64,000 nucleotides of DNA from Verrucomicrobiia bacterium (GTDB taxonomy: Bacteria > Verrucomicrobiota > Verrucomicrobiia > Limisphaerales > JAEYXS01): NCBI GenBank assembly GCA_036405135.1, contig DASWYF010000010.1, positions 124,001 through 188,000 of the forward strand, written 5' to 3'. The first letter of the stretch is position 1; every line of letters starts with the position of its first letter. The position numbers and the translations under genes were made by a program. The notes under the pieces were generated by a model. It ran no database searches, was not told where the DNA came from, and was given only the letters and a program-made list of their open reading frames with translations. Shown here piece after piece: positions 31,427-64,000 of this stretch.

Positions 31427-31559
31427 GCATCTCGATAGTGAGGTTCTAAATATTTTACGCCTCACTTCTCCCCCATCTCTGAACGTTGGAAGTTCAAAGT
31501 TGAACGTTGGACGTTTTCCCTAATGAATGCCCGCCGGTGCAACCGGCTTTCTTCATTCT

Positions 31560-32366
31560 CAATTCATAATTCATCATTCCCTTTGAGTCGCCTTCCCATC
31601 TCGTCCGGTCAATGTGACACTCCGCGATAGCATCCTGTCCTGCGGCACTCTAGCCACCAGTCCACACCTCCCGAATCCGACCCTCGCCAGCCACTTCAGT
31701 TAACCAGTATATGGACTCAGACTTACATTTCCCTCTCTTCCAATATGGAAGCCGAACTTCGGCATGGAGGAGAGGGCTAGGGAGAGGAGGCATTTAACAC
31801 CACTTTTCCCCATCTGTGTTTATCTGTGTCCATCTGTGGTTAAACAGAGAACCTATGTCAAAGAGCAATGAAACCACCCGACCCTTGTGCCGTATCGTGT
31901 TCTCCCTCCCTACGATTGAGAGTTCAAATTCAGCAGATGTCCAAAACCCGGCTGGTTCCGCAGTGGCTACTAGAGATTCCCCGGTCACATCACACCTGGA
32001 CTGACCGACGTCCCATTCACCCTCCAGCTTACGAGCCCCAATCCACCCGCCCGCTACACCCACATATCCTAACTGAGACTGACGCTTTTCTCCTCCCTCT
32101 CTTCCAACGATAGTTGGAGGAGAGGGCCGGGGAGAGGAGGCACTTAACCTTTCGCACCTCGAACTTCTCACCTCGTCCTTCCCATAATGGTTCCATAAGG
32201 ATCGTCATCTCCCCGCCAACGCAGGACACAACTGCACCTATGCGTGCCTAAAAACAGCACAATGCACCATCATGCTTGATGACCTTGAGGATTTTTCGGG
32301 GCTGCCTGTCGCTCTGAAAGAGCCCAACCACCGCTCCTCTCCTTTACCGACAACGAGTTGTCAGCA
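31560..32366 (-). repeat. Long dispersed noncoding repeat, copy A
   Basis: Read on the minus strand, this shares, in the same order, at least six blocks with 61151-61893 plus: GCTGACAACTCGTTGTCGG; GTCATCAAGCAT; GTTGTGTCCTGCGTTGG; GGGGCTCGTAAGCTGGAGGG with GGGACGTCGGT; CTGCGGAACCAGCCG; GGTGGTTTCATTGCTCTTTG; GCTGGCGAGGGTCGGAT; and AGAGTGCCGCAGGACAGGAT. The copies differ by short inserts at the junctions. Its role is unknown: a non-autonomous mobile element, a structured RNA or a decayed gene are all possible. Confidence 0.85.
31809..31845 (-). repeat. CAGAT-word repeat inside the long noncoding element
   Basis: Reverse complement of the (A/G)C(A/G)CAGAT 10-11-base word series: CATCTGTGTTTATCTGTGTC and CATCTGTGGTTA. 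It is present in this copy of the long element but absent at the corresponding place of the 61 kb copy. Confidence 0.8.
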
Positions 32367-32493
32367 AGAAAATTTTACTATGAAACCATTCAACATCAAT
32401 CGCTTTTTCTGAAAATCCCTTTCAAATCTCCTAATCTGCTGTCGCTCAGGAAATTGCACTCAAAGAATTTTTAAAAACATTTGAGCAAACTCC

Positions 32494-35400
32494 TCAATAC
32501 TCCTTCTCAAACTGCGGATGCACCCATAGAAACTCTTGTCGTTTATTCTGAACCCGCACCAGACCCAGCTTCGCATAGCTCGGATCCTTTTCCTTCAGCA
32601 TTGTGTGAAGCTGTCGTAGGACTGCACCACGTGCCGTCATGCCCTTGACCGCAGGCAACCCCGGATCCTCCAATCCATCTGCATCTTCCAACGTTTTCTC
32701 GCCACCTTCCAGCACGGATTCCACGCACTTCTGGCCGAAATCCAATTGATTCTCCATCGCCTTATACGCCGTCTCATCCATCCCCAGCTTCAACTGCGCA
32801 GACGCCACTGGTAGTACCAAGCTTGTAACCGTAGCAATAGTCTTCAACACCGGCGCCGCCTTAACAAACCAATCGCGCGGAATCTCAAACTCATAAACGC
32901 CCAATGTCGTATCACCTTTAGTAGCCGCATTAAGAAACGGCAATGGCTGGCGGCTATGCTCGCACCAGAGTGTCAGTTGGAACTTTTGTGCCAGCCAGTT
33001 CGGACGATCTAAGAATCCCGCATCCACCGGTTGAAGACTAAATAATCGCGGCCCTTCCTTAGCCTCATCCAACAACGTCTGCATCAAACCTGAGTAAGCC
33101 GCCTCAACCTTGCCGATGAGCTCCTTGTTAGCAGCATCAAGATGATCAAAACGTCCAAGCACTCGCACCTGCTGTGCTGACAACTGCATACGGATGCTAC
33201 CCAACGTCTGTAAAATGGTTGCGAGGTTCGCCACCAATTCATCCAACGGATTTGGGCGAGCTGCAGGGGCATTGCCCAGCAATTGTTCAACGCTCTGCCA
33301 TTCGTTGCAGATCGGGCACGGCACCTCGGGACGTCCGCGTTTTTTATTCTCAAGCAGCTTCCCTACTTCAAATAGCCCCATGCATGGTTCACCTTTCGTC
33401 TTTGGGGCAAGACAAGGCACTGTAATTTCACAGCGCATACCTTTCCAAAAATCTTCGACCAACCATTTCGTCTCATAAGTAAGCGCACCAAGAAAACTAG
33501 GTGGATATGGTGAACGCACACTGATCTTCACATCCGTCCCGATGTGCTCAAGAAAAGCACGTCCTCCTGTGTCATCCTGCAGTACCAAGCCACGCTGCCA
33601 GTGCACGCTATCGCGGAAGTTCACCCTGCCCAGCGAGTATTTATGCAGGCGTACGATAAGCTGGTAGAAAAGCCCTTCTGCGGTCGCTGATTGATTATTC
33701 GACGTATCTACTATGCGACAGATTTGAACTTGCTGTTCATCGCCGGAGGTAAGACTCTCCGGCCAAACCTCCGCCAAATCATTCTCAGGACGCATATCAG
33801 GCACAAGTTGCGCAATTAGGCTTGTGCTATCGGCCTCCGTCCTCCCCCATTCCGCAATCCTGTAGGAAAGATCGAAACGCTCCATCAATCTCAGGAAGAC
33901 TGGATGCAACGATGCTGGATAACGATTTTCCTCAGACCTGTCGGGATCATGCCAGAGCATTCCTAGCCGTTCGAACTTCACTAGCCCGTGGCCCTCTTCC
34001 CTAGTATGCTTGTCGTCAAGCACCAAGCTGATAGCCGTTGCCAGCCAGTCTGGTTTCAATACCACAATATCTTTCAATAATGGGTCATGCTCGTAGTAAA
34101 TGAGGTCACCTACGCGATGGCAAATGCGAAGGAGTAACCGTGCGTCTTCCTCTTCTATTTTGTGCTCTTTGCAAATGGCAAAGACCTTTTCCAGCGCGAG
34201 GTAAGCATCATCGCTGCTTCGTAACTTCTCACGAACTTCCTGCCAGTGTTTAGGGTAAGGGCGTCCAACTTCAGGCAGCGAGGTCGCTACGCTTGCAATG
34301 GCTTTCTTCAAGTCTGAAATGCCATCACCACTCTTGCTGTCTACATGAAAGAAATTAACTATCGTATCTTTGCCAAAGATATCCCAGAGTTCTTGTCGAT
34401 TGATATCTGGCTGACGTTTCTTAGGGCCGCCATGAGTGGCGACAACGAGGATTTTGGCATCCGGTTCACGATGCTTCACAAGTTTGATCCAATCTCTTAC
34501 GAATCCCTGTGATGATCCTTCACGCGGTTTCCATGCCACCAAATAGACTGCCGGGGCGCTGAAGAAGAGTTGGTGCGTGGGGCGATAGACCCGCTGCCCA
34601 CCAAAATCCCACCCGTTGAGCGTAATTTGAATGCCGGTGGCTGGATTAATCACCATCACTGGCTTGATCTCAATACCATGCGTGGTAGGGCGATCTTCTT
34701 CCCAAGGATCGTCACGCAATGCGCATAGCAAACAGCTCTTTCCCACTTCACCTTCACCAACGAGAATCAGCTTGGCTTCGTTGAGAAATACCTGTGACTG
34801 AGCCTTAGCACTCAGGTAACGTCTGACAGCGTTTAAACCCTCCTTATGGGCCGCGGCGAGCTCTGGATTGAGCGGGTTTTTAACGAGCCAGAGATTTTCT
34901 AATTCTTCTAGCTTCAGTAATGTGGCTGGCAAGTCAGTTAACTTATTTCCGCCTTCATCTTCAGAACCAAGCTCTAAGTGGTTAAGACATGTTAACTCGC
35001 CGATGCTGTCGGGAAGCTGTGTGAGTTCGTTTCCATCTAGGTAAAGTCTTTCGAGCTTGCTCAGTTTTCCAATCTCATCAGGCAAATTTGATAGCCTATT
35101 CTTAAAAAGACGGAGCGTCTTTAAGTTTACGAGTAGGCCAATGTCTTTCGAAAGAGAAGTCAGTCTATTTCCTTGGAGACTCAGATCACTAAGCTCCGTC
35201 AATTTCCAAACCCAATCTGGAATCTCAGAAAGCCGGAGATAAGACAAAGATAGAATGTTCAGCTTCAGAAGATGGCTTAGCGATTCCGGCAGAGCCGCCA
35301 ATTCATTGCTGGAAAGGCCGAGGTCCTGCAGTTGGGTAAGCTCGCCCAAACACTCCGGCACCACTATCAGTCCATTACGGGAAAGGTCCAGAGCCTGCAG

Positions 35401-35967
35401 CTGTTTGAGCTGACTCAGACACTCCGGCACTACGGTCAGTTGGTTGCCAGCGACGTCCAGCGACTGCAACTGTGCAAGCTGACTTATCCATTCTGGTATC
35501 GACTTAAGTTTGTTGTCGGAAACATTTAACGATTGCAACTGCGTGAGCTGCCCTAGCGTCTCAGGCAGAGTTATCAGCTCGTTGTTGCGAAGTTCGAGCG
35601 ACTTTAGTTGATCAAATTGGCCTAGGTATGGCGGCAGCATCCTTAGCCCATTGTCGCTTAGGTTCAATGACTGCAACTGCGTAAGATGGCCCAGCGACTC
35701 AGGCAGTCCAGATAGTTGATTGCCAGAAAGGTCCAGTGACCGTAACTGCGTAAGATGGCCAAGCCACTCTGGCAACGCGGCCAACTGGTTGTTAGAGAGG
35801 TCCAGTGAACTCAGATGTGTAAGCTGGCCAAGCGCTTCCGGCAGTTCGGTGAGTTTCGGCGTTTTCACACTCCATCTCCCTATGCCAAAACTAAGTTTTT
35901 CCGCTTTCGTCCGACGCGCTTTTTCTATCAACCGTTCCGCTCTACGATAAGCTTCATCTTGCGCCAT
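32494..35967 (-). CDS. Roco protein: LRR - Roc GTPase - COR, with zinc-ribbon-like tail
   Basis: A 1157-residue multi-domain protein. Residues about 39-365: fourteen 23-residue leucine-rich repeats (LxxLPExLGxLTQLxSLxLSxNx). About 395-560: Roc GTPase with P-loop GEGEVGKS, THGIE switch, G3 WDFGGQ and a G4 position reading VATHGG, which lacks the usual terminal Asp (NKxD/THxD). About 565-800: COR domain (HRVGDLIYYEHDPLLKDIVVLKPDWL). Then a Cys cluster (CEITVPC...CMG...CPIC, about 870-920), a helical region and a hydrophobic stretch (VLKTIATVTSLVLPVASA). No kinase domain follows. The gene is alone, lower in GC than its surroundings, and is flanked by a truncated gene and by the long noncoding repeat, all suggesting acquisition. 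Partners are unknown. Confidence 0.88.
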   Translation of the reverse strand: MAQDEAYRRAERLIEKARRTKAEKLSFGIGRWSVKTPKLTELPEALGQLTHLSSLDLSNNQLAALPEWLGHLTQLRSLDLSGNQLSGLPESLGHLTQLQSLNLSDNGLRMLPPYLGQFDQLKSLELRNNELITLPETLGQLTQLQSLNVSDNKLKSIPEWISQLAQLQSLDVAGNQLTVVPECLSQLKQLQALDLSRNGLIVVPECLGELTQLQDLGLSSNELAALPESLSHLLKLNILSLSYLRLSEIPDWVWKLTELSDLSLQGNRLTSLSKDIGLLVNLKTLRLFKNRLSNLPDEIGKLSKLERLYLDGNELTQLPDSIGELTCLNHLELGSEDEGGNKLTDLPATLLKLEELENLWLVKNPLNPELAAAHKEGLNAVRRYLSAKAQSQVFLNEAKLILVGEGEVGKSCLLCALRDDPWEEDRPTTHGIEIKPVMVINPATGIQITLNGWDFGGQRVYRPTHQLFFSAPAVYLVAWKPREGSSQGFVRDWIKLVKHREPDAKILVVATHGGPKKRQPDINRQELWDIFGKDTIVNFFHVDSKSGDGISDLKKAIASVATSLPEVGRPYPKHWQEVREKLRSSDDAYLALEKVFAICKEHKIEEEDARLLLRICHRVGDLIYYEHDPLLKDIVVLKPDWLATAISLVLDDKHTREEGHGLVKFERLGMLWHDPDRSEENRYPASLHPVFLRLMERFDLSYRIAEWGRTEADSTSLIAQLVPDMRPENDLAEVWPESLTSGDEQQVQICRIVDTSNNQSATAEGLFYQLIVRLHKYSLGRVNFRDSVHWQRGLVLQDDTGGRAFLEHIGTDVKISVRSPYPPSFLGALTYETKWLVEDFWKGMRCEITVPCLAPKTKGEPCMGLFEVGKLLENKKRGRPEVPCPICNEWQSVEQLLGNAPAARPNPLDELVANLATILQTLGSIRMQLSAQQVRVLGRFDHLDAANKELIGKVEAAYSGLMQTLLDEAKEGPRLFSLQPVDAGFLDRPNWLAQKFQLTLWCEHSRQPLPFLNAATKGDTTLGVYEFEIPRDWFVKAAPVLKTIATVTSLVLPVASAQLKLGMDETAYKAMENQLDFGQKCVESVLEGGEKTLEDADGLEDPGLPAVKGMTARGAVLRQLHTMLKEKDPSYAKLGLVRVQNKRQEFLWVHPQFEKEY

Positions 35968-60871: not shown

Positions 60872-61150
60872 GATAGAATACGGTATGGCCCGCAAAACAC
60901 GCGAAAACCGGTTGCACCGGTGGGCCAATGGGGGCGAAGGCGCAGGGAAATTTTTTCAACCGAATGGGAGGGGGAATTATGAGTTATGAATTATGAGGTA
61001 TGAAAGGGGAGTTGAAAACCGGAAGGTAAAATGCGAGTTACGTGGATGGGGATTTTTGGATGTTGTTGAGTGGGAAATGGTTGGGATTTACGTGCGAATT
61101 TTAGCGAAAAGTGGTGGTTTTCTTGCGATGTTTGTGGGATTAATTCCAGT

Positions 61151-61893
61151 GCTGACAACTCGTTGTCGGTAAAGGCGGGTGAGACTGGAGGTTGGCGCTC
61201 GAATCGGAGTGGTAGGCAGCTTCTGGAGAATCCCAAAGTCATCAAGCATAGCGATACGCATTGTCGTGTAGTTGTGTCCTGCGTTGGTGGGGAGGTGACA
61301 GCCTTATGGAGCCATCATGGGATGATGGAGTGGGAAAGTTTTCAGTGTTCAGTTTTCAGCCGGTTGCACCGGAGGCCAGACTGGGAAACGAAAACAGCCC
61401 AACCAAAAGTCTCAGATAGTTAGGATCTGTGGGTGTATCGGGTGTTGGATCGGGGCTCGTAAGCTGGAGGGGGAACGGGACGTCGGTGGGTGTAGGATTA
61501 TTTATGACCCACCGGGGAATCTCACAGTACTCACTGCGGAACCAGCCGAGTCAGGAACAGCGCCAGAGTCTGGCCTCCCTGTGAGGAGGAGCCATAGGCC
61601 AGATACAGCCGCAGGGGTCGGGTGGTTTCATTGCTCTTTGACATAATTTCCTAAAGGGAATGCTGAGGTTAGCGTCCGCGTGAGGGCGAAGTTCAAGATT
61701 TATCAAAAATCGAGGACGACGACGAGAACGAGGACGAGGACGAACGGCGTTGCCTTGTGGAGTGGCTGGCGAGGGTCGGATCCGGGAGGTGCAGACTGGT
61801 GGCTAGAGTGCCGCAGGACAGGATGCTATCGAGAAGAGGGAGCATCAAACGGACGAGATGGGAAGGCTGCTTCGGGGAATGTATGAATTATGA
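61151..61893 (+). repeat. Long dispersed noncoding repeat, copy B
   Basis: Matches the minus strand of 31560-32366 in the same block order (see copy A). Where copy A holds a CAGAT-word repeat and two CCTCTCC palindromes, copy B has a CCGGTTGCACCGG palindrome (about 61362), a GAGGACGAGGACGA microsatellite (61713-61742) and different linkers. The swap happens at the same junctions. Confidence 0.85.
61710..61744 (+). repeat. GAGGACGA microsatellite
   Basis: GAGGACGACGACGAGAACGA then GGACGAGGACGAACG: six-base (GAGGAC/GACGAG) tandem units inside copy B of the long element. Confidence 0.8.
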
Positions 61894-61997
61894 AGGATGA
61901 GGTATGAAAGGGGAGAAGTTGGGGAAACATCGAACTCTGAACATCGAAAGGGGGTTAGAGCCGACTTACGTCGGGCTGCTACAGTTGGAGAATGGGT

Positions 61998-64000
61998 TTA
62001 CTCCAAGGCGGCGATGGCGGTGCGGAGTTTGCGCTCCAAGGTGTTCAAACGCTGTTGCGTGAGGAGCTTGCCGCCGCCGATCTCGGTGACGTAGAAGGAG
62101 TCGATGGCGGCGCCTTTCTCGGTGGTGATCTTGGAGAGGATGACATCCACCTTCAGGTCGCTCAGGGTCTGCGCGATGGTGTAGAGGAGGCCGACGCGGT
62201 CTTCCGTCTCGATATCAATGACGGTGCATTGCGCCGAGCTGTCGTTATCGAAGCTGATGATGATGGGCAGTTCTTCGCCTTCGAGCGGGAAGTAGAGCGG
62301 CTTCACTGCCTTCCTTTTTTTGATCAAGGCGTTGAGGTTGGTGGTGTCATCGTTCAGCACCTGAGCGAGATATTTCTCGAACAGCTCTTTGGATTCGCGC
62401 TCGGCTGGCTTGCCAGTCACGGCTTCGTTCACGAGCAAGGTGTCGATGATGATGCCATCGCCTCGGGAGAAGATCTGGGCGCTGAGAATGTTCAGGCCCG
62501 CAGCTGTGAGTGCGCCGGTGATCTTTGCGAAGAGGCCGGTGCGGTCCCAGGTGCAGACCTTCACGACGCTGTGGCTGCGGTCGGGCTCGTTATGCCAGTA
62601 GGTGACGGGCTCCAACGCACGGTTCTCTTCCGTGAGTTGCAAATGCATGAAGCGATGGGTGAGCGCGAGATCGGTCATCACATCGCGCGCCGTGTGCGTA
62701 TGGAAATAGCGTGGTGGCAACGAATGGAAGTGCGCTTGCAATTCGTCTTCGTTGAAGCTGGAAGGAGCGAGTTTACGGACTTCCTTGGCGAGGTTCTCAC
62801 GCAACTTCTCTTCCGCGCGAATAAAGTCAGGTCCACCGGCGATGAGGTTCATCGTATTGCGATGAAGCGTCCAGAGGAGCGAGTCCTTGAAGCTGTTCCA
62901 GATCTTGTCACTGGTGCCGAGTGAATCGGCGACGGTGTGAAGCGTGAGCATCACGAGGTTCTCAGGTGTCTCGATGAGCTTCGCGAAGCTCTGGATGACG
63001 GCGGGGTCATCGAGGTCGCGACGTTGCGAGATCTGCACCATGGTGAGGTGTTGCTCGACGATGAGGTGCAGCTTATCGACCGCCGCCGCGCTGAGTTTGA
63101 GGCGCTTGCCCATGCGGTTCACGAGGCGGGCACTGTCTTTCTCATGGTGACCGCTGTCATCGGCCTTGCCGGCGTCATGCAGGAGCAAGGCGAGGTAAAG
63201 GAGGTGCGGATGTTCCAGGCTGATGAACATCTCGGTGTAGGCGTTCAGCGGCGGGGTCTTCGCGCCCCAGATGTCATCGAGCTTCTGCAAGCACATGAGC
63301 GTGTGCTCATCGGCAGCGTATTGATGGAAGAACTCGTGTTGGACGAGGCAGGTGAGGCGGCCGAATTCCGGGATGTATTTTCCGAGGAAATCGACATTGT
63401 GCATCATCCGCAGAATGCGCGCGACGTCACCACGCTGGTCCATGATCTGGAGGAAGGTCTCGTGAACGTGGATATCCTCCAAGAAATAGCGGTTCACCAA
63501 GGAGAGTTCCTGACGGATGAGCTGGGCGAGATCGGGATGCAGCGAAAGACCGCGTTGCTGCGCGTAGAGGAACACGCGCATGAGTCGGCGCGGTTGCTCG
63601 CGGAAGACGCGGGCGTTCGCCGCCTCGATCTGGCCATCGAGGAAAATGAAACCATCTACCGGCGCGGGTTTGGCGGATTTGCGACTGCGCAAGATCTCGC
63701 GGAACGTCGGGAAGCGGCTGGCCACGGGCATCATCGCGAGACGTTGCTCCACGAGCTGGCTGATAAGGTAGATGTTGCGCGAGTGTTTGTAGAAATCGCG
63801 CATCAGGCCTTCGAGACGTTTGCGAGGGGAGCGATCGGTGTAGCCGAGATTGTGCGCGATAGCGGGCTGGATGCTCTTGGGCAGGGCATCGACGGGACGA
63901 CCGGTGTGATAATGCAGGTCCGTGCGGACGCGCATCAGGTAGTCGTAAGCGGCCTCAAGCTGCTTCGCTTCCGCCGCGCTCAAAAGATCGCGCAGGCGCA
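61998..64000 (-). CDS. glnD: [Protein-PII] uridylyltransferase, N-terminus beyond window
   Basis: GlnD adds or removes UMP on PII proteins according to glutamine level, linking nitrogen status to glutamine synthetase. The frame is open to the window end, so the nucleotidyltransferase domain is missing here. Seen (numbering from a TTG at 63983): a helical GlnD-linker region (LMRVRTDLHYHTGRPVDAL), the HD domain with LLHDAGKADDSGHHEKDSARL, then two ACT domains near the C-terminus (VKVCTWDRTGLFAKITGALTAAGLNILSAQIFSRGDG; VIDIETEDRVGLLYTIAQTLSDLKVDVILSKI). The HD and ACT pieces fit GlnD; the true start must lie upstream of 64000. Confidence 0.92.
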   Translation of the reverse strand, partial: RLRDLLSAAEAKQLEAAYDYLMRVRTDLHYHTGRPVDALPKSIQPAIAHNLGYTDRSPRKRLEGLMRDFYKHSRNIYLISQLVEQRLAMMPVASRFPTFREILRSRKSAKPAPVDGFIFLDGQIEAANARVFREQPRRLMRVFLYAQQRGLSLHPDLAQLIRQELSLVNRYFLEDIHVHETFLQIMDQRGDVARILRMMHNVDFLGKYIPEFGRLTCLVQHEFFHQYAADEHTLMCLQKLDDIWGAKTPPLNAYTEMFISLEHPHLLYLALLLHDAGKADDSGHHEKDSARLVNRMGKRLKLSAAAVDKLHLIVEQHLTMVQISQRRDLDDPAVIQSFAKLIETPENLVMLTLHTVADSLGTSDKIWNSFKDSLLWTLHRNTMNLIAGGPDFIRAEEKLRENLAKEVRKLAPSSFNEDELQAHFHSLPPRYFHTHTARDVMTDLALTHRFMHLQLTEENRALEPVTYWHNEPDRSHSVVKVCTWDRTGLFAKITGALTAAGLNILSAQIFSRGDGIIIDTLLVNEAVTGKPAERESKELFEKYLAQVLNDDTTNLNALIKKRKAVKPLYFPLEGEELPIIISFDNDSSAQCTVIDIETEDRVGLLYTIAQTLSDLKVDVILSKITTEKGAAIDSFYVTEIGGGKLLTQQRLNTLERKLRTAIAALE

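Follow-up and report, generated by a model that had tools for sequence, protein, structure and literature searches.

Two intergenic stretches of the window (the whole stretch of 64,000 nucleotides analysed here) belong to a family of at least 39 copies scattered over the source genome. Judged from the aligned copies, this family is a real structured RNA, with a fold under selection on one strand. Our preferred reading, held with rather more belief than doubt, is a lineage-specific, rRNA-like, multi-copy gene family for a large structured non-coding RNA. The family is probably new and heavily used, because about 40 scattered, intricately folded copies, which swap parts with each other, carry a signal like that for anti-termination in rRNA genes.

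A preliminary description of the window had noted ordered blocks common to two intervals (copies 1 and 2, Table 1), with different short inserts at the same junctions. All seven blocks that it quoted are found, in the order given there, in both copies. With copy 2 as the query of a whole-genome search, copy 1 matches with E = 2e-31 (query positions 1-495) and 2.4e-35 (608-743), much more than chance would give. The exchange of inserts is confirmed as well: the A-B junction has a CCTCTCC palindrome in copy 1 and CCGGTTGCACCGG in copy 2, and the B-C junction has CACAGAT words with a second CCTCTCC palindrome in copy 1 and a GAGGACGA microsatellite in copy 2. The edges of the two intervals were drawn too tightly, since the conserved stretch sets in some 115-150 bases before the GCTGACAACTCG hairpin, and some other copies carry an extra 3′ module. 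The two copies, correctly seen as such, are two of at least 39.

Region U of copy 1 starts directly past the stop codon of a Roco-type gene ending at 32494, which encodes a 1157-aa LRR-Roc-COR (Roco/LRRK-like) protein (window 32494-35967, minus strand). Convergent with copy 2 lies a gene for a GlnD-like uridylyltransferase with HD and ACT domains (window 61998-63983, minus strand); this same gene also follows an element copy in one of the relatives (C368 of G002).

Table 1. Positions in the window of the two copies and of their parts.
Feature	Position	Strand	Basis or remark
Copy 1	31560-32366	-	interval of the preliminary description
Copy 1, conserved region U upstream (A+T-rich, promoter-like)	32366..32480	-	conserved upstream stretch in 56 copies
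Copy 1, 5′ hairpin, 9 bp, CUCG loop	32345..32366	-	compensatory change in other copies
Copy 1, block A (type I)	32181..32365	-	
Copy 1, A-B linker with CCTCTCC palindrome	32072..32180	-	absent from copy 2
Copy 1, block B, boxA-like site at its end	31854..32071	-	alignment A2 and fold
Copy 1, boxA-like TTGCTCTTTGACATA	31854..31868	-	genome matches of first 13 bases; 16S leader likeness
Copy 1, B-C linker (CACAGAT words, second CCTCTCC palindrome)	31699..31853	-	
Copy 1, block C	31590..31698	-	alignment A3; covariation (double-change cells: 32, against 7.5 in shuffles)
Copy 2	61151-61893	+	interval of the preliminary description
Copy 2, upstream conserved region U	61031..61150	+	
Copy 2, 5′ hairpin	61150..61171	+	
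Copy 2, block A (type I)	61151..61319	+	
Copy 2, A-B linker with CCGGTTGCACCGG palindrome	61320..61420	+	
Copy 2, long-range A-B helix, 5′ strand	61306..61316	+	3′ strand 61621-61631, directly before boxA-like site
Copy 2, block B, boxA-like site at its end	61421..61645	+	
Copy 2, boxA-like TTGCTCTTTGACATA	61631..61645	+	
Copy 2, B-C linker with GAGGACGA microsatellite	61646..61758	+	
Copy 2, block C	61759..61867	+	

Members of the family measure about 0.65-1.0 kb, with a core of about 450-500 conserved positions and, in order, an upstream region, blocks A, B and C, and variable linkers holding small palindromes and microsatellites. The upstream conserved region (about 115-150 bases) falls into several classes; it contains suggestive sigma-70 hexamers, although without a consistent assignment, and the classes differ from each other. 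Block A occurs in two forms. Some copies continue with one of two extra 3′ modules, found in full only where they adjoin the element. Module D, 3′ of block C in L066, L062, L073, L079 and L081, carries GTGTTTCCATGTTCCTGCT, then a hairpin with a GTGGAA loop and CTTACC; its final hairpin, GGGACCGGGTGGAACCGGTCCTTACC, is also dispersed as a repeat in its own right. The other module, E, is likewise a large hairpin domain on the 3′ side. It takes the place of module D in L060, L074, L077 and L095 and is present also in L063, L111 and L113, with a compensatory change from GCACCC/GGGTGC to GCCTCC/GGAGGC. In most copies, short-repeat families (ATGAATTATGAA, AACATCGAACATC, ATAGGTCTTATGGGGCC and TTTACGATTTACGA) cluster just 3′ of the element (in the window, at 61880-61990 and 31440-31570).

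Structured RNA was one of three readings offered in the preliminary description, and covariation, which it had proposed as a check, strongly supports it on the sense strand only. In the fold of 44 aligned copies, the consensus energy is -222.8 vs. -153.7 +/- 7.1 for class-preserving column shuffles (z = -9.7), and there are 23 covarying pairs with double changes vs. 0-2 in the shuffles, controls that ignore the kinship of the copies. The antisense strand, at -151.9, folds no better than the shuffles. In block C, 96% of the cells are paired (slid controls, at most 49%), with 32 double-change cells where 7.5 +/- 3.0 are expected. In the 5′ hairpin, GACAACUCGUUGUC is changed into GGCAGCUCGCUGCC in other copies and pairing is kept; the hairpin occurs as CTGACAACTCGTTGTCGG in some copies and as CTGGCAGCTCGCTGCCGG in others. 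A long-range helix of 11 bp links block A with the last part of block B, directly before the boxA-like site (96.8% of the cells paired, one covarying pair). A further complementarity, between TGTCCTGCG of block A and CGCAGGACA of block C, was discarded, since TGTCCTGCG is missing from the other form of block A while block C keeps its own sequence.

G-U pairs are frequent in the helices. A repeat acting at the DNA level (a nucleoid or recombination site), with palindromes that only mimic RNA structure, would be at home with the palindromic inserts and with the mosaic exchange among copies described below; it is nevertheless very improbable, as the consensus fold favours one strand and as a DNA hairpin would not tolerate G-U pairs.

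In nearly all copies, block B is closed by TTG(C/T)TCTTTGA(C/A)ATA, a motif that looks like the anti-termination signal of rRNA genes. The first 13 bases of TTGCTCTTTGACATA have 34 exact matches in the genome vs. none for the reversed control. The single 16S gene of the source genome has GATTGCTCTTTGAAAG in its leader, and TTGCTCTTTGA is common to the motif and to this leader. In copy L089, TGTTCTTTGACATA persists even though extra bases precede the site, and the variants seen among copies (TTGTTCTTTGAAATA) fit known boxA forms. The motif lies midway along the element and not in a leader, which counts against the boxA reading. From established rrn biology, we infer that the site could bind Nus factors.

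The element could also be a cis-acting untranslated or attenuator element of the adjacent genes: copies are close to genes, and a boxA-like site could affect read-through into those downstream. We consider this improbable, given that the copies are intergenic in every gene orientation, with neighbours that differ and a downstream gene on either strand, and that many of them, including copy 2 of the window, lie between convergent genes.

The preliminary description spoke of a dispersed element and proposed a search of the whole genome and of related ones; the dispersal is borne out. In the source genome (G000, 5.8 Mb), 100 matched pieces fall at about 40 places among the matches listed, and a search with the exact boxA motif adds two further complete copies (C27 and C47). 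The count of at least 39 adds, to 29 complete copies, no fewer than 10 right-hand halves that lie at contig ends. Element sequence occurs also on 40 contigs of G002 and on about 14 contigs of G001, two relatives from the same genus with incomplete assemblies. With a covariance model of block C, the family is found only in these three among 320 genomes that represent 118 genera of the order, and only in the source genome among 388 genomes spread over the phylum. An exact 21-base motif, sought in 84,980 GTDB species representatives, is present only in the Verrucomicrobiota MAGs C_No_T20_B_bin.127 and SFB_3D_100_87, which are the two relatives. Phage and plasmid collections gave no blastn match to the element; one motif match in a viral contig (L218) was dismissed as a chance 20-mer.

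At loci shared between species, the inner blocks are usually nearer to paralogues in their own genome than to the orthologue. Region U is nearest to its orthologue, among the copies of other species, at the one locus testable in three species; in the L058/L098 pair, U fails to track the locus (rank 5 of 7), and blocks B and C keep close orthologues. None of 28 copies has a single nearest relative over all four blocks. Mantel correlations run from -0.06 to 0.07 for U-A, U-B, U-C, A-B and A-C and reach 0.45 for B-C. As read from these distances, the inner blocks assort almost independently, except B with C, and the evolution of the family is mosaic and concerted. Where copies share sequence, short reads assembled into chimeras could make the mosaicism look greater than it is; it is nonetheless seen in two independent assemblies, the copies of G002 behaving in the same way. 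The exchanged inserts are repeats placed in peripheral loops that tolerate them, and the mosaic of conserved blocks indicates recombination between copies as another origin of the exchanged appearance. The earlier phrase "landing site for smaller repeats" is apt as a description, with different short repeats at the same junctions.

Copies can be inherited at a fixed locus, and they can also be gained or lost: species have at least five loci in common, as judged by flanking genes, and two loci of the source genome hold no element in G002, the same pair of flanking genes being separated there by about 80 and about 150 bases. Such gain and loss, like the dispersal and the high copy number, would be explained by the main rival, a mobile RNA or DNA element that is non-autonomous and mobilised in trans by some enzyme, with a conserved fold since only well-folded copies transpose. 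On balance we find it unlikely. Target-site duplications leave no signal (mean longest match 7.5 vs. 7.1 in mismatched pairs, a comparison limited by uncertain ends and intergenic divergence). The reverse transcriptase domain RVT_1 (PF00078), present in 5 of 14 genomes searched, has no match in the source genome or in its two incomplete relatives. Among the matches listed, all copies lying clear of contig ends are full length, although short relics could have escaped; full-core identity within a genome does not exceed 0.89; and no family of internal ORFs is seen in the copies. These points, with the loci held in common, leave the non-autonomous mobile element of the preliminary description not established, even though its loci do come and go between species.

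The decayed gene, its third reading, is rejected: the element has no Pfam match, there is no codon periodicity and the lengths of the blocks break the frame, so that the copies do not form a gene family with conserved codon structure either. With Rfam 15, the window has no match at the gathering score and copy 2 none to E = 5 under relaxed conditions; in nine other copies, only a neighbouring tRNA matched. No description of this RNA family was found in the literature, and we file it as a new, lineage-specific family of the large structured RNA kind.

HEARO or OMEGA RNAs of IsrB-IscB elements are structured RNAs too and can be multi-copy; the present element is about twice as long, without match to Rfam, and no ORF for an HNH protein is seen inside the copies examined. 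Like GOLLD, ROOL and OLE, it is large, extensively structured and non-coding, those RNAs being several hundred to more than 800 nt long and of poorly understood function (PMC12286853). Unlike them, it occurs in a single genus as about 40 copies dispersed over the chromosome, has a boxA-like site and block shuffling, and does not match their Rfam models. GOLLD and ROOL are encoded by phages or prophages, often near tRNA islands (PMC12286853), whereas the phage and plasmid searches above gave no match to the element. REP/BIME, ERIC and MITE-like repeats are likewise dispersed in intergenic DNA, but the element is much longer, with a multi-domain fold, long-range helices and no target-site duplication signal; small REP-like repeats sit inside its linkers. 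ORF-less group II introns are large, structured and dispersed, and differ in that the element has no Rfam match and that no RVT_1 reverse transcriptase is found in the three genomes. The rRNA operons with boxA antitermination share with the element the boxA-like sequence (matching the 16S leader of its own genome), multiple copies, concerted evolution and a large structured RNA. The element, in contrast, is not rRNA, carries its boxA-like site internally, is dispersed in single copies and is restricted to one genus.

On the rRNA-like reading that we prefer, each copy would be transcribed from its conserved upstream region, and the boxA-like site would recruit antitermination machinery of the NusB/S10 type, as for rRNA, so that a long untranslated RNA may be finished despite Rho. 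The RNA would work in trans, as a structural RNA or RNP; copy number would be maintained for dosage, and gene conversion would keep the sequences alike, as it does in rRNA operons. The peripheral loops between the core blocks would tolerate insertion of the small palindromic and microsatellite repeats of the genome. A more specific version, which we put forward tentatively and with more doubt than confidence, is that of an abundant, genus-specific, rRNA-like structural RNA. About 40 boxA-bearing genes per genome, with locus-specific upstream regions and RNA modules exchanged freely by gene conversion, would then yield large RNAs or RNPs that are related, form a combinatorial set and function in trans.

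Large structured RNAs of bacteria are few and mostly unexplained. Here, dozens of natural variants per genome, the independent exchange of modules, a boxA-like site of the rRNA type and the abrupt restriction to one genus make three matters testable: function, antitermination in transcripts other than rRNA, and how RNA genes are born. The natural variants also constitute a dense alignment for structure determination.

Many contigs of the source genome end within an element copy (for example C4, C5, C7, C10, C14, C16, C24, C26, C28, C44, C45 and C49), and the element is therefore a main cause of breaks in this assembly.
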